From NCBI RefSeq assembly GCF_002009425.1, contig NZ_CP019936.1, positions 4,575,297 through 4,639,296 on the forward strand: 64,000 nucleotides of DNA, given 5' to 3'. This document shows, one piece after another, positions 33,096 through 41,085 of the stretch (within the stretch, counting starts at the first letter, position 1; every line of letters starts with the position of its first letter). The notes under the pieces are model-generated. The model did no database searches and was not told the DNA's origin. It saw only the letters and a program-made list of their open reading frames with translations. The DNA comes from Thiosocius teredinicola (GTDB taxonomy: Bacteria > Pseudomonadota > Gammaproteobacteria > Chromatiales > Chromatiaceae). Made by a program: the position numbers and the translations under genes.

Positions 33096-33583
33096 GGCGA
33101 CTCCGATGGCGTGACGGACACACCGTCGTTGCTGCCGAGTCGACGCCGCAGGCGATGGATGCGCGACAACACCGTGCCGCGACGACTGCCGGTGGCAGCG
33201 GCGATCTCGGCGGCAGTCATGCCGTCGATCGCCCACAGGTAGAGGATCTCTCGCTCTATCCCCTGCAACTGCGACCAGACGCGCTCGAGTTGCTGACGCG
33301 AAACCATCATCTCCTCAAGGCACTGGGTGTCGATCGCCAGTGTTTCGATATCGCCATTTGCATCTTCCACCTCCGGGCTGACCCGTCTGCGGCGCGCGAG
33401 ATCGATGTAACGATTGCGCATCACGCGGCGGGCATAACCTTCCGGACTGGTCGACTCGGCCGGCGGCTTGCGCAGGCAACGCTCGACCGTGTCCTGCAGC
33501 AGATCGTAAGCCCCGGCCTCTTCGCCCAGCAAGGCATAGGCGTAGCGGTAGAGCCGGTTGAGCATGGCGTGGTCAAACAGCAT
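33092..33583 (-). CDS. ECF sigma factor of the bufferin-type operon
   Basis: A 163-residue sigma-70-family factor with region 2 (LYRYAYALLGEEAGAYDLLQDTVERCL, RRVMRNRYIDLARRRR) and region 4 (LQGIEREILYLWAIDGMTAAEIAAATGSRRGTVLSRIHRLRRRL). It overlaps the bufC-like gene upstream by 11 bases and the anti-sigma gene downstream by 4, so all are co-translated. Neisseria carries a related ECF/anti-sigma pair with DUF692, DUF2063 and DUF2282 genes, supporting autoregulation of the operon. Confidence 0.9.
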   Translation of the reverse strand: MLFDHAMLNRLYRYAYALLGEEAGAYDLLQDTVERCLRKPPAESTSPEGYARRVMRNRYIDLARRRRVSPEVEDANGDIETLAIDTQCLEEMMVSRQQLERVWSQLQGIEREILYLWAIDGMTAAEIAAATGSRRGTVLSRIHRLRRRLGSNDGVSVTPSESP

Positions 33584-34313
33584 GTCGATGATGTGCGTAT
33601 CCGACGATCCAACGCTGTTCCACCAGCATCTTCATCAGCGCCAGGTCGAGGGTCGGATCATCAGCCAGTTGTGCGAGGGTTGCACCACTCGCACAGCGCT
33701 CGAGCAGCTGCCACGCAGACCGGTCGATCAGTCCCACCCACACGTCGAAACCACGGCGTTGAACGAGCAACCGATAATCGCCACGAACGAAGTCGATGTC
33801 CGACGCCGCCTGCGGCTCACGTTGTGACTCCCACACCAGGTGCACCGGCCATTCGCTGGCCATCAGGTTCAGCTGTCGTGAGACGCGCGGAATCATGTGC
33901 GATGGATCGACGCCGTCAACCGATGAATCACTCGTCTGGTCGTCTTCGCTGTAAGCGAGTCTATGCACCAGCCATTCCAGGCGCGCCACATCTGCAATCC
34001 AGGCAACGGAGGCCAACGACGGCTGACGTTCGGCGACCTCGGCGAGAAAACGATCGAAGCCCTCGCCGTACAGATTCAGGTCGCTACAGGTCGATGCTTG
34101 GGTCGCGATGAAGTGGCGTGCAACCCCATCGAAACAGGCATCACCGACCAAGCGACCGCAGACCGGGTAGACGCTCGCAAGGGCGGCTTGGCGCACGCCG
34201 CGACTGTTGCCACGATAGATGCTCACCGCCTCCGGGTCGAATCCTGCAGCATCGGCAACAGCGGCATCGATGAAACGCGATACCGCGTGCTGCCATTGGT
34301 GCAGCGTCGTCAT
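33573..34313 (-). CDS. bufC: DUF2063 (HvfC/BufC-type) RiPP maturation partner
   Basis: A 246-residue cytoplasmic protein. The ATG at 34313 overlaps the DUF692 gene stop by 4 bases. The N-terminal half has the DUF2063 pattern: ISIYRGNSRG-like VSIYRGNSRGVRQAAL, ASVYPVCGRLVGDACF and YGEGFDRFLAEV. The C-terminal part (DYRLLVQRRGFDVWVGLIDRSAWQLL) resembles the family's winged-helix-like end. Its known role is to present the precursor peptide to the MNIO enzyme. Confidence 0.85.
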   Translation of the reverse strand: MTTLHQWQHAVSRFIDAAVADAAGFDPEAVSIYRGNSRGVRQAALASVYPVCGRLVGDACFDGVARHFIATQASTCSDLNLYGEGFDRFLAEVAERQPSLASVAWIADVARLEWLVHRLAYSEDDQTSDSSVDGVDPSHMIPRVSRQLNLMASEWPVHLVWESQREPQAASDIDFVRGDYRLLVQRRGFDVWVGLIDRSAWQLLERCASGATLAQLADDPTLDLALMKMLVEQRWIVGYAHHRHAV

Positions 34314-35158
34314 GCGGCATCTTCCCGCACCAGAGCAACGATACCCGCCGCGGTGCTCGCCTGGGAGATCAGCACATCGAGGGTCGGTATGTTGTTGTCC
34401 CACTCGATGCATACCGGCGTCTCGGGCAACACGCGCAGACACTCACTGAACAGATCCCACACGGCGTCGCTTACCGGGTTGTTGTGTGCATCCACGAGGT
34501 ACCTTCCCTTGTCTTCATAACCGGCCAGGTGCAACTCACGCACACGGTCGAGCGGCAACGCGCCGAGCGCCTCACACGCATCGAAGCCCAGGTTCACCTG
34601 GTTGACGTAGAGATTGTTGATGTCGAGCAGCAGATCACAATCGGCTTCGGCACACACCTCGGCGATGAACTGTGCTTCGGTCATCGGCGTATCGGCGCGC
34701 ACATAGGCCGACACATTCTCCACCAGCAGGCGTTGCTGCAATATGTCCTGTGCGATCTGGATACGCGCAGCGACGTGCATCACCGCCTCGTCACTGAACG
34801 GCAAGGGCAGAAGGTCGTGATAATGGCGGCCCGCATGCGCTGTGAAACACAGGTGGTCTGAAATCCACGCCGCGCCGGTATCGCGCGCCATCTCGCCGAC
34901 GCGCTCGATATAGGTACGATCGAGTGATCCGCTGCCGCCCAGGTTCATGCCGACACAATGCAGCGTCAAGGGATAACGTTCGGCCGCGCGCTGCAACTGG
35001 TGACGCGCTATGCCACCGATCAGATAGTTGTCCGCCAGCACCTCCAGCCAAGGCACTGCCTGTCGGCCCTCCATGAGCTGGTGAAAATGGATATCGCGCA
35101 GGCCTATGCCGACACCGGACACAGACCCGCGCCCCTGTGTTTGGGGCGCGGTCTTCAT
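34310..35158 (-). CDS. bufB: DUF692/MNIO multinuclear iron enzyme (BufB/HvfB-type)
   Basis: A 282-residue TIM-barrel enzyme of the multinuclear non-heme iron oxidase family that modifies cysteines of RiPP precursors. Metal-ligand-rich blocks are visible: WLEVLADNYL, LHCVGMNLGG, ISDHLCFTAHAGRHYHDLLPLP, LVENVSAYVRA, LLLDINNLYVN, ELHLAGYEDKG and CIEWDNNIPTL. It lies 7 bases after the precursor gene. In known bufferin pathways the product is a copper-binding peptide; here the precursor type predicts the same. Confidence 0.92.
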   Translation of the reverse strand: MKTAPQTQGRGSVSGVGIGLRDIHFHQLMEGRQAVPWLEVLADNYLIGGIARHQLQRAAERYPLTLHCVGMNLGGSGSLDRTYIERVGEMARDTGAAWISDHLCFTAHAGRHYHDLLPLPFSDEAVMHVAARIQIAQDILQQRLLVENVSAYVRADTPMTEAQFIAEVCAEADCDLLLDINNLYVNQVNLGFDACEALGALPLDRVRELHLAGYEDKGRYLVDAHNNPVSDAVWDLFSECLRVLPETPVCIEWDNNIPTLDVLISQASTAAGIVALVREDAA

Positions 35159-35165
35159 AGCGACT

Positions 35166-35453
35166 CTACTTCGCCGGCTTTACTTTGGCGACCACGCCGC
35201 CGGTGATCTTTTCGCAGGTACCGGCCGGCACATAGACCCATTCCTGCGGATCGTTATCGCTCGCGGCCTGACCGGCACAATTGTGCTTGCCGTCCAAGGC
35301 ACCGCAGTCGTTCTTGCCTGCCACCGCGATGCCGGCGCATTTTTCCCAAGCCGTCGGCGCGTCGGGCACCGCAGATGCCGTGGATGCGGCCATCAAAGAG
35401 CCGGCAGCCAGCAAGGCGGCGGCAGCACCGGTGATTCGGTCATTGTGATTCAT
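35166..35453 (-). CDS. bufA: Bufferin-type RiPP precursor (DUF2282)
   Basis: A 95-residue secreted precursor with a signal-peptide leader (about residues 1-28, ending ASA) and a core with four cysteines at 39, 50, 59 and 80. [23 protein letters not shown] and [11 protein letters not shown] are the classic DUF2282 pattern. In characterised bufferins the inner cysteines are converted by the MNIO enzyme to thiooxazole rings that bind copper. It heads the operon bufA-bufB-bufC-ECF-anti-sigma. No DoxX-type bufD is seen. An ACTGT-N3-ACAGT inverted repeat (35471-35483) lies just upstream. Confidence 0.9.
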
Positions 35454-35707: not shown

Positions 35708-37756
35708 ATGACTACCCATCGCCTGCGAGACGCAACCAGCCCCTATCTGCAACAGCACGCCGACAACCCGGTCGACTGGTGGCCGTGGTGCGACGAAGCA
35801 CTCGCGCTGGCACGTTCGCAGGGCAAGCCGATCCTGCTATCGATCGGTTATTCGGCGTGCCACTGGTGCCATGTCATGGCGCACGAATCGTTCGAAGACC
35901 CACAGACCGCCGAGGTCATGAACGAGCTGTATGTGAATATCAAGGTCGACCGCGAGGAACGCCCCGATCTCGACAAGATTTACCAGACTGCCCATCAACT
36001 GCTGGCACGCCGCGCCGGGGGCTGGCCATTGACGGTGTTCCTGACGCCGGACGATCTGAGCCCGTTCTTCGCCGGCACCTATTTTCCGCCGGCGCCGCGC
36101 CACGGCCTGCCCGCCTTCCGCGACCTGTTGCAACAGATCGCGCGCGCCTACAACGAGCAGCGCGACGCCATCGATGAACAAAACGCTTCGTTGCGTCAGG
36201 CCCTGCTGCAACTCGATCGCACCGGCAGCGCGGGTGCCGCAGCGATCGACGATCAACCGATCAATGAGGCAATCAACCAGCTGGCCGGCCAGTTCGACGC
36301 CGAGTTGGGCGGATTCGGCGGCGCGCCCAAGTTTCCGCATCCGGTGACGCTGCGCTTCCTACTGGCGCAGGGCGTGCGCCGCAACGACGACTCGGCACGT
36401 CACATGGCGCTGCACACGTTGGAGAAGATGGCCAACGGCGGTATCAACGACCACCTCGGTGGCGGCTTCTGCCGCTATTCGGTCGATGAGCTGTGGATGA
36501 TCCCGCATTTCGAGAAGATGCTTTACGACAACGGCCAATTGCTCGACGTGTATGCCCAGGCGTGGGCGGCAGATGGCCAACGCCCTCTGTTCAAGCACGT
36601 CTGCGAACGCATCGCCGAATGGACCATGCGAGAGATGCAGTCACCGCAGGGTGGCTACTACGCCAGCCTCGACGCCGACAGCGAGGGTGAAGAAGGTCGC
36701 TATTACGTGTGGATGCCGGACGAGGTCAAACAGGTGCTCGACGCCGACGAGTACAAGGTGTTCGCCGCACGTTTCGGCCTGAATCGCCCAGCGAACTTTG
36801 AAGGCAGTTGGCACCTGCACGCGTACGCCGATACGCAGAAACTGGCCACGAAAACCGGCCTCGAGCCGCGCCGGATTCGCCAGCTGCTCGCCAGCGCGCG
36901 CGACAAGCTGTTCGCCGTCCGCGAGCAACGGGTACGTCCCGGTCGGGACGAGAAGATCCTGACCAGTTGGAATGCCCTGATGATCAAGGGCATGGCAAAC
37001 GCCGGGCGGCGCCTGGGTCGGCCCGAATGGATCGACTCGGCGCAGCGTGCGCTCGACTACCTGATCGCACACCACTGGCGGGACGGACGGCTGCTCGCCA
37101 CCAGCCGCGATGGGCAGGCGCAGCTCAACGCCTATCTCGATGACTACGCCTACCTGCTCGCCGCGATCCTGGAAGTGCTGCAGGCGCGCTGGCGCAGCGA
37201 CTACCTCGACCTCGCTCAGCAACTCGCCGAGCGTCTGGTCAGCCATTTCGAGGACCGCGAACAGGGCGCCTTCTACTTCACCTCGGACGACCACGAGTCC
37301 CTGGTGCACCGCCCCAAGTCGCTCGGTGACGACGCGACGCCGAGCGGCAATGCGATCGCCCTGGAGTCGCTGCAGACCCTTGCCCTGCTGGTCGGCGACA
37401 CCGACCTTCAGGACGCGACCGAGCGCACCATTGGCGCGACCTGGCAGGCCATCCAGCAGGCGCCTTACGCCCACGTCGGGCTGTTGATGGGCCTGCAGGC
37501 CTACCTCGATCCGCCGGAGCAGATCATCGTCCGCGGGCCGGCCGATACGGCGAACGACTGGGCCGCGCCGCTGGCGGGCGGATTTGCGCCGCAGCGCACA
37601 GTCTTTATCATCCCGGACGACGCCGCCGGACTGCCGGCGGGGCTGGCGGCAAAACAGGCCGCAGCGGGCAAAACGCTGGCCTACCGCTGCCGCGGGCAGG
37701 TCTGCGAACCACCGGTCGAAGAGGTCGCGAGCCTAATGGCCGACGACCACGGTTGA
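35708..37756 (+). CDS. DUF255 (YyaL/SSP411-type) thioredoxin-fold protein
   Basis: A 682-residue cytoplasmic protein. The N-terminal thioredoxin-like domain has C51-H-W-C54 in [29 protein letters not shown]-like [16 protein letters not shown] and [11 protein letters not shown]. The rest is an alpha/alpha-barrel of the N-acylglucosamine-epimerase type ([35 protein letters not shown]). Family function is poorly known. It is divergent from bufA across a 254-base gap; the two could share regulation, but no shared site is evident. Confidence 0.93.
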
Positions 37757-37784: not shown

Positions 37785-37812
37785 GGAATAACTCGATGCA
37801 GACAGCGTCTAT
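37785..37812 (+). promoter_or_regulatory. Candidate ECF-type promoter for a leaderless sigma gene
   Basis: GGAATAA at 37785-37791, 15-base gap, GTCTAT at 37807-37812. The ATG follows 12 bases after the first G of GTCT and no Shine-Dalgarno precedes it, so the message may be leaderless. A similar GAAATAT/GTCT arrangement precedes the ECF gene at 39797. Confidence 0.45.
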
Positions 37813-37818
37813 CAGCAC

Positions 37819-38385
37819 ATGAGCAACAGTAACGGATCCCTGTTCGGACATTTCGGCCGCCGGCGCAAGCTGCGCCAGGCGATCTGTGCCGAACGCGAAC
37901 GCCTGTACCGGATTGCGTGGTCGTGGTGCCACGACAGCCACCAGGCCGACGATCTGGTGCAGGAAACCCTGACGCGCGCGCTGAGCAAGCTCGATTCGCT
38001 GCGCGAAGAGAGTCGGCTGCAGGTGTGGTTGACCCAGATCCTGGCCAACTACTACCGCGACCAGTTCCGCCGCATTCAGCCCGAGACCGGGCTGGAGAAC
38101 GAAAGCCTGATCGCCGACGACGGCGATCCGGAACACGCCGCCGACCGCACCCTGTTGATCACGCGCACGCGCGAGGCGATCGCGATGCTCAATGAAGACC
38201 AGCGCCAAGTCCTGACCCTGGTCGACGTCGCCGAGTTCAGCTATGCGGATACGGCGGCCATTTTGGATGTACCGGTGGGTACCGTCATGAGTCGGCTGTC
38301 ACGCGCCCGTCGTCGCATGCGCGAGATCCTGGAACAGCAAGGCATAGGACGTGCCGAGGTAGTACCGCTGAGGAGGCACCAATGA
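37819..38385 (+). CDS. ECF sigma factor of the DsrE-linked module
   Basis: A 188-residue ECF factor: region 2 ERLYRIAWSWCHDSHQADDLVQETLTRAL, then VWLTQILANYYRDQFRR; region 4 AIAMLNEDQRQVLTLVDV to SYADTAAILDVPVGTVMSRLSRARRRM. Its stop overlaps the next ATG by 4 bases, so it is co-translated with an unusual anti-sigma factor bearing a DsrE-like domain. The candidate promoter overlaps the start region and suggests autoregulation. The target genes are unknown; the third gene of the unit, a secreted DsrE-family protein, is probably co-transcribed. Confidence 0.93.
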   Translation: MSNSNGSLFGHFGRRRKLRQAICAERERLYRIAWSWCHDSHQADDLVQETLTRALSKLDSLREESRLQVWLTQILANYYRDQFRRIQPETGLENESLIADDGDPEHAADRTLLITRTREAIAMLNEDQRQVLTLVDVAEFSYADTAAILDVPVGTVMSRLSRARRRMREILEQQGIGRAEVVPLRRHQ

Positions 38386-39116
38386 GTTCGAATGACGATC
38401 TTGAGTTGAACGCATACGTAGACGGCGAACTGAGCAACGACCAGCAGGCCGAATTGCTCGAAGCCATGCGTGGCGACAAGGAACTATCCCGCCGGGTTTG
38501 TGAACTCGGGCAGATGAAGACCCAGGTCAGGCTTGCCTACGCGATTCCGCCGCGCCCGACGCGCCGCGGCATGAGCGGACGCAGCGGCTCGTGGCGTGCT
38601 GTGGCGGCCGGCTTTGCCCTGCTCGCCCTCGGCCTGATCAGTGGCTGGCTGCTGCACGCAAACTCGCCTGATTGGCAGTCCAACAGTCAGCGCTTCGTCG
38701 TTCTCGACCCCGATGGCCGCGGCCAGGCGCCGGCGCGCGCAGCCGACGGCGAAACCCGCATCGTGTTTCACCTCACCCAGGCCGATCAGGTGGCGGCGGG
38801 CGAGTTGCTCGACGAGGTCGAAGGACTGCTGCGGGCCTACGAGGCCGATGGCCGACTGTTGCGCGTCGAGGTGGTCAGCAACAACAACGGTCTCGACCTG
38901 TTGCGCGAGCGCCTGACCGCACACAAACAGCGTATCCACGTTCTCGCCGAGCGTTATTCGAATCTCACTTTCGTCGCCTGCAAGAACAGCATCAACCGCA
39001 TCCAGGTTGAGAAAGGCATCGAAGTAAAACTGATCCCGGATGCCGAGGTGATCGACTCCGGCGTTGATCATGTTGTCAAACGGCAACGTGAAGGCTGGTC
39101 GTATATCCGCGTCTAG
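38382..39116 (+). CDS. Membrane anti-sigma factor with periplasmic DsrE-like domain
   Basis: A 244-residue protein in three parts. Residues 1-55 resemble an anti-sigma N-terminus (LELNAYVDGELSNDQQAELLEAM) but lack a HxxxCxxC zinc motif. One membrane span lies at 72-92. Residues about 122-244 match the secreted DsrE-family protein encoded next: RIVFHLTQ, NNNGLDLL, TFVACKNSI with C200, DSGV and the end GWSYIRV. DsrE-family cysteines carry persulfides in sulfur oxidation. A periplasmic DsrE domain on an anti-sigma factor suggests direct sensing of sulfur or redox state; this function is inferred. Confidence 0.75.
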   Translation: MSSNDDLELNAYVDGELSNDQQAELLEAMRGDKELSRRVCELGQMKTQVRLAYAIPPRPTRRGMSGRSGSWRAVAAGFALLALGLISGWLLHANSPDWQSNSQRFVVLDPDGRGQAPARAADGETRIVFHLTQADQVAAGELLDEVEGLLRAYEADGRLLRVEVVSNNNGLDLLRERLTAHKQRIHVLAERYSNLTFVACKNSINRIQVEKGIEVKLIPDAEVIDSGVDHVVKRQREGWSYIRV

Positions 39117-39163
39117 CCTTTATCCACCACCTGCCGGAGAGCAGGGCCGAAGGAGTAGAGAAG

Positions 39164-39646
39164 ATGAAGCGAGTTATGAGTTTGATCCTAATAGGCTTGG
39201 TTGGCCTTATGACCTCGATGGGGGTTACTGCAGAAACGGCAGGCTACACCAAACAGAAGGTCGTCTATCACGTGAACGGGGACGACCCGAAACAACAACA
39301 AGGTGCCTTACGCAACATCCAAAACCACATCAACGCAGTCGGTGCCGACAACCTCGACCTGCGCGTTGTCATGCATGGCAATGGTTTGTCGATGGTGCTC
39401 CTGCCGGATGCAGTCAGCAAGGTAAAGAAGTTCAAATCGGGAAATGCAAACGAAGAGATGCAGGCGAAAATCGACGGCCTGCGCAACCAGGGCGTGTCGT
39501 TCAAAGTCTGCGCCAATACCGTAAAGGGACGCGGTGTGATCGTGGACGAGCATCTCTACAACGTCGACCAGGCCGATATCGTGCCGAGCGGCGTGGCGGA
39601 ACTTGCCGCCCTGCAATCCCAGGGTTTCACCTACATCAAACCATGA
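39164..39646 (+). CDS. Secreted DsrE-family protein
   Basis: A 160-residue periplasmic protein with a signal peptide (about 1-24, MKRVMSLILIGLVGLMTSMG) and an AAGGAG site. The mature part is a DsrE-like fold: KVVYHVNGDD, LRVVMHGNGLSMVL, SFKVCANTV with C116 and the end GFTYIKP. C-x-N-[ST], NGL and the aromatic-Y-I terminus are shared with the C-terminal domain of the anti-sigma factor just upstream. It may deliver sulfane sulfur to, or compete with, that sensor domain; both are hypotheses. Confidence 0.8.
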   Translation: MKRVMSLILIGLVGLMTSMGVTAETAGYTKQKVVYHVNGDDPKQQQGALRNIQNHINAVGADNLDLRVVMHGNGLSMVLLPDAVSKVKKFKSGNANEEMQAKIDGLRNQGVSFKVCANTVKGRGVIVDEHLYNVDQADIVPSGVAELAALQSQGFTYIKP

Positions 39647-39796: not shown

Positions 39797-40300
39797 ATGG
39801 CAAAACTACGCACCGATTTCGACACCCTGGTCAAGGCGTTGGCGCCCGAGCTGTATCGTTACGCGATGGGCCTGTGCCACAACCCGCATACCGCGGAAGA
39901 CCTTGTTCAGGAAACGTTTTTGCGTGGTTGGCGGTCGCGTAAGGATCTGCGCGACGCCAAGGCGGCGCGCGCGTGGCTGTACACCATTTTGCGCAACGAG
40001 CACGCCCGTCTGTATGAGCGACAGCGGCCCGAGGCGCACGACCCGAACGAGCTTCCTGACGTGCCGGTGCGTGGCTATGACACGAGCGCAGCGGCCTTCG
40101 CCACGCGTCGTGCGCTGGCCGAGCTCGAGCCGGAGTACCGCGATCCTCTGCTGCTGCAGGTGATCGGCGGTTTCAGTTGCAAAGAGATCGGAGGAATCCT
40201 GGATCTCAACACGAACACGGTGCTAACGCGCCTGTTCAGGGCCCGAAAGACACTTCGGGATCGATTAACGGATCATCCACTTAAGGAGGCCGCACAATGA
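39797..40300 (+). CDS. ECF sigma factor paired with a DUF3379-type anti-sigma factor
   Basis: A 167-residue ECF factor with region 2 (LYRYAMGLCHNPHTAEDLVQETFLRGWRS) and region 4 (LAELEPEYRDPLLLQVIGGFSCKEIGGILDLN to TRLFRARKTLRDRL). It has no clear Shine-Dalgarno; GTCT lies 12 bases before the ATG, as at 37807, so a leaderless message from an ECF promoter is plausible. It is paralogous to the factor at 13840. Its stop overlaps the anti-sigma ATG by 4 bases. Confidence 0.92.
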   Translation: MAKLRTDFDTLVKALAPELYRYAMGLCHNPHTAEDLVQETFLRGWRSRKDLRDAKAARAWLYTILRNEHARLYERQRPEAHDPNELPDVPVRGYDTSAAAFATRRALAELEPEYRDPLLLQVIGGFSCKEIGGILDLNTNTVLTRLFRARKTLRDRLTDHPLKEAAQ

Positions 40301-41085
40301 ATTGCCTGGATTTCCGCCGCCGCCTGCTGGCTGATCCGTTCTGCGACGACGAGGAATTGCTCGCGCACGAGGAAACCTGCCCGGATTGCGCACCCTTTGC
40401 GCGCGAAACCCGTGCGCAGGAGATTGCGCTGAGAAACCTGTTGCAGGAAGTCACCCCGCCGGAGGGGCTGGCCGAGCGCATTCAGCTCGCTGCGCGCTAC
40501 GAACACCGGGTCGAGAGCAAGCGCCGCTGGTGGTACGCCGCGGCTGCATCAATGCTGCTGACCATTGGCGTCAGCCTGTTTTCCGTCTGGCACACCATCG
40601 ATGAGCGCAGCGACCTGAGCTTGGCTCAGTCGGTTCTCAACCATATCGACGACGAGTCGAACCACCTGCGAGAAGCCCAGCCGGTGTCGAATGGCCGGCT
40701 GAAGTTCGTATTCGATCGGTTCGATGCCGAGCTGGCAGGCGATCTGGGACAGGTTAACTTCGCGGCTGAATGCCCGATGCGTCATCGCACAGGGGTCCAC
40801 CTGGTCATGCCCGGCAAAATGGGGCCGATCACGGTGTTCTTTATGCCCGGCGAAGATACCGACGGCGTCCTGCCAATCGTTTCGGACCGATTCCAAGGCG
40901 AGATCACACCGACGGCCTGGGGCAGTATTGCCGTCGTCGGCGAGAGCGGCGAACGGTTGGACGGTATGGGTGAAGCGCTGGCCGATGCCGTACGCTGGCC
41001 AGCCAATGCGGGTGAGCTGGCCTCAGCCCTGTTCGAGCGACGACTGAGCCTCGGCCCCCGAGTCGCGCAGCAACAGGATCGTTGA
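40297..41085 (+). CDS. DUF3379-type zinc anti-sigma factor
   Basis: A 262-residue membrane anti-sigma factor. The N-terminal zinc-binding anti-sigma motif is visible: H24-EET-C28-PD-C31, with C3 upstream. A membrane span follows near residues 78-100 (WWYAAAASMLLTIGVSLFSVW). The periplasmic part includes NFAAECPMRHRTGVHLVMPGKMGPITVFFMPG, as in DUF3379 proteins. It is coupled to the ECF gene by a 4-base overlap. Its last 63 bases overlap a convergent small zinc-ribbon gene. Confidence 0.85.
   Translation: MNCLDFRRRLLADPFCDDEELLAHEETCPDCAPFARETRAQEIALRNLLQEVTPPEGLAERIQLAARYEHRVESKRRWWYAAAASMLLTIGVSLFSVWHTIDERSDLSLAQSVLNHIDDESNHLREAQPVSNGRLKFVFDRFDAELAGDLGQVNFAAECPMRHRTGVHLVMPGKMGPITVFFMPGEDTDGVLPIVSDRFQGEITPTAWGSIAVVGESGERLDGMGEALADAVRWPANAGELASALFERRLSLGPRVAQQQDR

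Follow-up and report, generated by a model that had tools for sequence, protein, structure and literature searches.

In a 64,000-nucleotide stretch of the Thiosocius teredinicola genome (contig NZ_CP019936.1, positions 4,575,297 to 4,639,296 of the forward strand; hereafter the window), the gene of an extracytoplasmic function (ECF) sigma factor is followed by genes for a membrane anti-sigma factor carrying a periplasmic DsrE domain and for a secreted DsrE protein. Our analysis indicates that the sigma and anti-sigma factors are probably a dedicated switch for the Sox pathway of periplasmic thiosulfate oxidation in Gammaproteobacteria that oxidise sulfur, with the DsrE domain as its predicted sensor. 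A preliminary description of the window had linked this switch to sulfur, and the link was strengthened by the co-occurrence of SoxB with the full-length anti-sigma factor (65 of 66 genomes), by runs of sigma, anti-sigma, and soxXYZAB genes in two genomes, and by a shared promoter motif before sox genes. The parts of the unit, in window coordinates, are as follows.

37785..37810, + strand: predicted ECF promoter of the sigma operon, GGAATA-N15-CGTCT (position weight matrix, 23.8 bits)
37819..38385, + strand: ECF sigma factor, 188 aa, regions 2 and 4 (Pfam Sigma70_r2, 8e-12; Sigma70_r4_2, 3.2e-17)
38382..39116, + strand: membrane anti-sigma factor with a C-terminal periplasmic DsrE domain, 244 aa (sequence, AlphaFold2, Foldseek)
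38595..38657, + strand: transmembrane span, residues 72–92, with an Arg-rich cytoplasmic (N-terminal) side (sequence; AlphaFold2 helix 70–94)
38754..39113, + strand: periplasmic DsrE-like domain, about residues 125–244 (phmmer match to 1L1S, 1.8e-10; Foldseek, 1.1e-9)
38979..38981, + strand: codon of C200, the sole Cys in the periplasmic domain (84/84 distinct sequences)
39164..39646, + strand: secreted DsrE protein, 160 aa, with an N-terminus that is signal-peptide-like in sequence (PF02635, 1.2e-11; AlphaFold2/Foldseek)
39509..39511, + strand: codon of C116 in the C-x-N-T motif of the secreted DsrE protein (127/128 relatives, one gap)

Anatomy of the three-gene unit

The open reading frames (ORFs) of the window place the sigma, anti-sigma, and secreted DsrE genes at the positions given in the preliminary description, as an apparent single operon. 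The interval outlined there starts at 37785, which is the first base of a conserved ECF-type promoter motif (GGAATA-N15-CGTCT). The 188-aa sigma factor scored over the Pfam cut-offs for Sigma70_r2 and Sigma70_r4_2 and comprises regions 2 and 4 only, as is characteristic of ECF sigma factors. The sigma and anti-sigma genes share 4 bp, 47 bp separate the anti-sigma stop codon from the secreted DsrE gene, and the exact promoter motif is absent from the 260 bases 5' of the secreted DsrE gene. This spacing and the lack of a motif of its own suggest that the secreted DsrE gene likely shares a single transcript with the sigma and anti-sigma genes.

The anti-sigma factor has the traits of a class I membrane anti-sigma factor, namely a small helical N-terminal domain, a single span, and a gene beside that of the sigma factor. 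Its matches to anti-sigma families in the libraries were weak and below cut-off (zf-HC2, 0.012; NF052375, 0.0013). An AlphaFold2 model built from a 24-sequence alignment (mean predicted local distance difference test score 86.5, predicted template modelling score 0.55) comprised three N-terminal helices (residues 3–54), a long helix (70–94), and a DsrE fold from residue 125. The low value of the second score is expected because two domains are joined via the span and a loose linker. The long helix and the helical N-terminus agree with the topology proposed earlier, with one span at residues 72–92.

The DsrE assignment of the anti-sigma domain was made because of a sequence match to MTH1491 (1L1S) and the predicted fold, not because of PF02635 (DsrE), which Pfam did not list for this protein at E ≤ 1 and whose family cut-off was not reached. 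With phmmer, residues 125–243 matched 1L1S (1.8e-10), and the C-terminal half matched ST0148 (2PD2; 7.5e-5) with the cysteine aligned. The best Foldseek match of the domain was also 1L1S (E 1.1e-9, template modelling (TM) score 0.88 over the target), and the top matches comprised 1L1S, ST0148, a designed relative, a Syntrophomonas DsrE, E. coli YchN, and DsrE (5e-4 for YchN/DsrE). The claim that the periplasmic part is DsrE-like thus stood up to a structure prediction that could have overturned it. A chance resemblance to DsrE was ruled out by the sequence and fold matches.

The secreted DsrE protein scored over the PF02635 cut-off (45.2 bits versus 22.7, E 1.2e-11), and its AlphaFold2 model likewise had a DsrE fold, with 2PD2 as the best Foldseek match (TM 0.90 over the target). 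Structure prediction thus returned a DsrE fold for both DsrE-like domains, and both proteins have in their sequences the NGL turn and the W-S-Y-I or F-T-Y-I end noticed earlier.

Conservation of the periplasmic cysteine

Conservation was assessed in 84 distinct full-length anti-sigma sequences, the window's own included, and in 128 secreted relatives. C200, W239, and Y241 were invariant in all 84 anti-sigma sequences, in each of which C200 was also the sole cysteine of the periplasmic part, and C116 was retained in 127 of the 128 secreted relatives, the remaining row having a gap at this position. The conserved cysteine on which the earlier proposal depended was therefore found in both protein families. 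A conserved cysteine is also the mark of persulfide-type DsrE proteins, and C200, which aligns in sequence with the cysteine of MTH1491/ST0148, may be the counterpart of the DsrE active-site cysteine. This anatomy and conservation point to the DsrE domain as the sensor.

Two other kinds of redox sensing were examined separately. A zinc-type redox anti-sigma factor (ZAS) was ruled out by the presence of HxxxCxxC in 0 of the 84 sequences, which extends to all of them the absence of a zinc motif described for the window's protein. An intradomain disulfide switch in the periplasm was ruled out by the single cysteine found there in 84/84.

In an unrooted FastTree phylogeny of 213 DsrE domains, all 84 anti-sigma-fused domains were placed together with a support value of 0.998, and none of the 129 others fell among them. 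The simplest reading of this sequence tree is that DsrE would have been fused to an anti-sigma factor once and retained thereafter.

Distribution and co-occurrence with SoxB

Some anti-sigma match at E ≤ 1e-3 was obtained in 107 of 369 evenly sampled genomes of the class, and many of these matches were confined to the DsrE part. The full-length anti-sigma factor was present in 66 of the 369, representing 40 families; four partial rows (G036, G087, G090, and G259, of which G087 and G090 have SoxB) were excluded before this count. Among the 66 genomes encoding the full-length anti-sigma factor, 65 had SoxB, versus 88 of the 303 others (Fisher 3e-28, uncorrected for kinship, although the 66 span 40 families). 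The flavocytochrome c sulfide dehydrogenase family was weakly associated with it (28/66 versus 86/303, p 0.03), on which ground a particular tie to flavocytochrome c sulfide oxidation was rejected.

Across the phylum sample, 3 of 398 genomes gave full-length matches, all from the same class and the window's own among them. A further genome of the same class matched over an N-terminal part only, and in another class one genome had an interrupted frame. The pair also occurred in symbiont metagenome-assembled genomes (MAGs) named Candidatus Thiodiazotropha (L070, L104, and L114) and in the cultured sulfur oxidiser Thiomicrorhabdus arctica (L076). In a Thiomicrorhabdus MAG (L071:574-1264), the anti-sigma gene was split in two frames and is apparently a decayed or frameshifted copy. 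An origin from a mobile element was ruled out, with no relative confirmed in the viral collection and none of the plasmid matches (16 records) covering >80% of the query.

Gene neighbourhoods

Forty anti-sigma-anchored loci from 36 genomes were hand-picked among the better-scoring rows of the class search. The sigma gene adjoined the anti-sigma gene in 40/40 by gene listing (39/40 by a distance rule), and a DsrE gene lay within 3 kb in 28/40, downstream in 9 and divergent in 20. The linkage of three genes proposed for the window was thus retained in part: sigma/anti-sigma adjacency was kept and a DsrE gene was often near, whereas the exact order of the window, with DsrE directly downstream, was a minority layout (9/40) and the divergent layout was commoner (20/40). 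Together with the fold and cysteine results, this leaves the earlier proposal unrefuted on all three counts that it had named. A gene of one porin cluster, assigned to Porin_O_P by Pfam on relatives, was found in 17/40 loci.

Sox genes adjoined the pair in three loci. In L144 and L150, the sigma, anti-sigma, soxX, soxY, soxZ, soxA, and soxB genes run in one direction, with DsrE and porin genes divergent from them. SoxB in both loci and SoxA/SoxX in L150 were identified with NCBIfam and SoxY/SoxZ in L150 with Pfam, and the other sox genes in L144 were identified by likeness to those in L150. In L159, sigma/anti-sigma has as its neighbour a run from soxX to soxB with a DsrE gene after it, and the genes divergent from the pair encode DsrE, a porin, a thioredoxin-like protein, and a Sulf_transp (PF04143) protein that resembles TsuA at a score below the NCBIfam cut-off. 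Two adjacent sigma/anti-sigma(DsrE) pairs with DsrE genes on both outer sides were seen in L124 and L125.

The neighbourhoods bear on a quite improbable alternative, in which the DsrE domain would not be a sensor and the secreted DsrE protein would bind it as feedback on sigma release, the signal entering elsewhere (e.g., by regulated proteolysis). The two proteins have their fold, termini, and cysteine motif in common, DsrE-fold proteins are oligomeric, and the secreted DsrE protein is itself a predicted target of the sigma factor, all of which would suit docking. However, 12 of the 40 anti-sigma loci lack a DsrE gene within 3 kb, and mere docking leaves the invariance of C200 unexplained.

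Predicted promoter and regulon

The promoter motif GGAATA-N15/16-CGTC was derived from enriched word pairs 5' of the sigma genes. GGAATA-N15/16-CGTC[TA] was present in 47 of 74 sigma upstream regions (shuffle mean 0.02) and in 15 of 80 DsrE upstream regions; the loci counted overlap slightly, the same contig occurring in two collections, and the counts without duplicates were 46/72 and 14/78. A position weight matrix (PWM) was trained on the sigma sites alone and applied with a threshold of at least 14 bits. Across 35 divergent sigma/DsrE intergenic regions, PWM sites faced the sigma gene in 26 and the DsrE gene in 30 (25/34 and 29/34 after deduplication).

Sox regions were compared between SoxB-positive genomes with and without the pair. 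The first set covered 63 of 65 genomes (G131 and G290 omitted) and, with two regions from G126, comprised 64 regions, and the second covered 40 of 88 genomes, hand-picked from the top of the SoxB list. PWM sites were located 5' of soxB in 21 of 64 regions with the pair versus 0 of 40 without it, and 5' of soxX in 9 of 24 versus 2 of 17, and shuffled upstream sequences contained none (0/142 and 0/101). Counted by region, a PWM site preceded any sox gene in 23/64 versus 2/40. The simple pattern G[GA]AATA-N15/16-CGTC preceded a sox gene in 21/64 versus 2/40, and two scrambled patterns were found in 0–2 regions per set. The sites in L150 and L232 have one mismatch and were detected by the PWM only.

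It is extremely improbable that the pair and Sox are associated only as two traits of sulfur oxidisers, with the sox sites read by another sigma factor of similar specificity. Related taxa do carry both traits, and the motif is common to ECF26 sigma factors (PMC6527743). Against this stand the absence of a site before soxB in the sampled SoxB-positive genomes without the pair (0/40) and the physical linkage of the pair to sox in L144, L150, and L159.

The window's own genome contained 17 matches to GGAATA-N15/16-CGTC, and the reversed pattern gave 11. Four of the 17 sites precede fitting genes. One is the site of the own sigma gene; the others lie 217 bases ahead of soxB (site at 4457711 of the genome), 46 bases ahead of a DsrE paralogue whose N-terminus is signal-peptide-like, and 36 bases ahead of a thioredoxin operon in which a TlpA-like thioredoxin gene is followed by that of a Thioredoxin_2 protein. 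Most of the remaining sites fall inside long ORFs.

Proposed mechanism

In the rest state, the N-terminal helices of the anti-sigma factor would keep the ECF sigma factor at the membrane, as family knowledge and the model suggest. The periplasmic DsrE domain would read a reduced sulfur compound or sulfane sulfur via C200, probably in concert with the secreted DsrE protein, which carries a matching cysteine. The sigma factor would thereupon be released by proteolysis or a conformational change and would transcribe from GGAATA-N15/16-CGTC promoters. Its targets as predicted from the motif would be its own operon, secreted DsrE genes (often followed by a Porin_O_P-type porin gene), periplasmic thioredoxins, soxB, and, in a number of genomes, soxX-led operons. 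The anatomy, the conservation, the grouping of the fused domains, the linkage to Sox, and the promoter motif come directly from the computations. The direction of control, the ligand, the chemistry and persulfidation of C200, and sulfur delivery by the secreted DsrE protein are the parts of this scheme that we infer.

A more specific form of the scheme can be offered only tentatively, and we hold it to be possible rather than probable: the secreted DsrE protein would pass periplasmic sulfane sulfur to C200, where the persulfide would free the sigma factor and turn the sox genes on. If such a relay were true, DsrE would serve as a sensory domain, and sulfur transfer would count among the modes of transmembrane signal transduction.

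Several observations weigh against a switch dedicated to Sox oxidation. Only 23 of 64 Sox regions from pair-bearing genomes, some of them on short contigs, have the motif ahead of a sox gene, and the one-mismatch site counted for L150 lies within the sox run. Two loci without a full-length pair (L242 and L249) have a site before soxX; the genome of the former (G064) gave a weak anti-sigma match in the class search (E 6.6e-4). The anti-sigma pair was present without detected SoxB in G055, the flavocytochrome c sulfide dehydrogenase family is only weakly associated, and 12 of 40 anti-sigma loci are without a nearby DsrE gene. In the window's own genome, 13 of the 17 sites have no evident sulfur-related target, and the reversed pattern gives 11 matches. 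Unlike soxB, the soxYZA run of this genome (~1.06 Mb) is without a sense-strand site across the examined flanks, and control there, if any, would therefore be indirect or via a weaker site.

Comparison with known systems

The ECF26 regulators of sulfite oxidation have the promoter consensus −35 GGAAT / −10 CGTC (PMC6527743) and include those of RpoE4–SorT in S. meliloti and SigE–SorAB in Starkeya novella (PMC3511301, PMC6527743). RpoE1/RpoE4 respond to sulfite-generating compounds and are autoregulated (PMC3511301). The system of the window resembles these sigma/anti-sigma pairs in its ECF sigma and anti-sigma factors, predicted autoregulation, predicted sulfur-oxidation target, and GGAAT/CGTC promoter, found as GGAATA-N15/16-CGTC[TA] in 47/74 sigma upstream regions (46/72 distinct). 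It differs in that their targets are sulfite oxidases, whereas sox, DsrE, and porin genes are predicted here. Sequence similarity was not decisive for ECF26 membership, as the sulfite-oxidase-linked sigma factor was matched by the window's sigma factor at 4.8e-23 and by an unrelated second sigma factor at 9.5e-21.

A Sulfitobacter plasmid (L282) carries genes for a sigma factor, an anti-sigma factor, a cytochrome, and a sulfite oxidase, the last of them preceded by a GGAATA/CGTC site, and this gene order suggests that the pair belongs to ECF26. Its anti-sigma factor, the one such protein examined, matched the anti-sigma profile (A1) at positions 1–98 only (E 3.8e-6) and gave no DsrE match with the alignment of the secreted protein (A2).

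The likeness to ECF26 raises an alternative that we regard as rather unlikely, in which the DsrE domain would sense thiol redox or a toxic by-product of Sox (sulfite, polysulfide, or H2S) and control a protective regulon, with sox secondary. Such a stress sensor would fit the match of the motif to the ECF26 consensus −35 GGAAT / −10 CGTC (PMC6527743), the response of RpoE1/RpoE4 to sulfite-generating compounds (PMC3511301), and the thioredoxin genes among the predicted targets. It is at odds with the soxXYZAB runs and the motif sites directly before soxB/soxX, and the sulfite-oxidase-linked anti-sigma factor of Sulfitobacter matched the profile only in its N-terminal/span part, with no DsrE match at E ≤ 10.

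For a switch acting on Sox oxidation, the reading that we prefer, a parallel exists in Arcobacter butzleri, which belongs to a different phylum. Its ECF sigma-2 activates sox genes and also controls nap (PMC3445524), and is thus likewise an ECF sigma factor acting on sox genes; the word DsrE is absent from the text of that paper. SoxR, a repressor, is a well-studied sox regulator, and in Hyphomicrobium denitrificans SoxR/SoxT1B signals external sulfur to sox expression (PMC11582611). This system differs from that of the window in its two-cysteine repressor with a sulfur bridge and its YeeE-like transporter, and that text names neither a sigma factor nor a DsrE sensor (PMC11582611). The two-component systems TtrSR/ThsSR sense tetrathionate/thiosulfate (PMC5408782), that is, inorganic sulfur compounds outside the cytoplasm, as is predicted for the window's pair. 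They differ in using a histidine kinase and a PhnD-like sensor, not a DsrE-fused anti-sigma factor. In other genomes, TtrS/TtrR-like pairs (below NCBIfam cut-offs) stand beside genes of this secreted DsrE family.

The window's domain shares with MTH1491/ST0148 and the DsrE/YchN fold its fold, the aligned cysteine position, and the C-terminal G-W-x-Y-[IL]. MTH1491 and ST0148 are free-standing and were deposited as unknown function/hypothetical, whereas the domain of the window is joined to a membrane anti-sigma factor and should, by prediction, lie in the periplasm. No DsrE-fused anti-sigma factor was found in the literature searched, with subscription journals mostly outside its coverage. The kind of switch and the promoter are known; what appears to be new is the sensory domain and, within this class, the sox regulon.

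To our knowledge, how sulfur-oxidising Gammaproteobacteria perceive external thiosulfate or sulfane sulfur is poorly known, and the pair is a concrete candidate: it is widely conserved, its regulon can be predicted from a promoter motif, and it offers a single cysteine for testing. DsrE has so far been known as a sulfur carrier. If the sensing reading is true, this carrier would become a sensory domain.

Secreted DsrE proteins in other loci

The anti-sigma profile A1 was too diverse for the collection scan, and the secreted-protein alignment A2 was used instead. Of 435 confirmed loci, 80 were kept as the named set, which is therefore biased to loci carrying the secreted protein. The anti-sigma gene was present on the examined DNA in 37 of the 80 named loci. 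Among the 43 loci without it, 17 had at least 8 kb examined on both sides, and the secreted DsrE protein therefore also exists without the switch. A tandem pair of secreted DsrE genes was seen 3' of the anti-sigma gene in L039, L045, and L058.

A TtrS-like sensor kinase gene (with a PhnD-like domain) was found in 14 named loci (13 without the anti-sigma gene), a TtrR/FixJ-like regulator gene in 14 (12 without), a TlpA-like thioredoxin gene in 18 (9 with and 9 without), and a gene for a SoxH-related metallohydrolase in eight, all without. The examined representatives of the TtrS, TtrR, and SoxH-related proteins scored below the curated NCBIfam cut-offs and are therefore relatives only. The secreted DsrE gene lies beside TtrS/TtrR-like genes in L063, L064, L095, L110, and others, partly together with the genes of the TlpA-like thioredoxin and the SoxH-related metallohydrolase. 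A second kind of sulfur sensor (TtrS/TtrR-like) thus adjoins, and may control, the same secreted DsrE family; no description of this arrangement was found in the literature searched.

Neighbouring genes in the window

A DUF255/DsbH-type thioredoxin-domain protein of 682 aa is encoded just 5' of the sigma promoter (35708–37756). On the minus strand at 33573–35453, DUF2063, DUF692-type (MbnB/TglH/ChrH), and DUF2282 genes stand in a row and form a small modified-peptide cluster of a kind linked to metal handling. Directly after the unit, at 39797–41085, a second ECF sigma factor gene (PRK12517-like, below cut-off) is accompanied by that of a DUF3379 anti-sigma factor. A second sigma/DUF3379 pair of this kind also follows the secreted DsrE gene in 8 of the 80 named loci (L039, L040, L043, L044, L045, L049, L053, and L058), and in L040 it is present there without the first sigma/anti-sigma pair.

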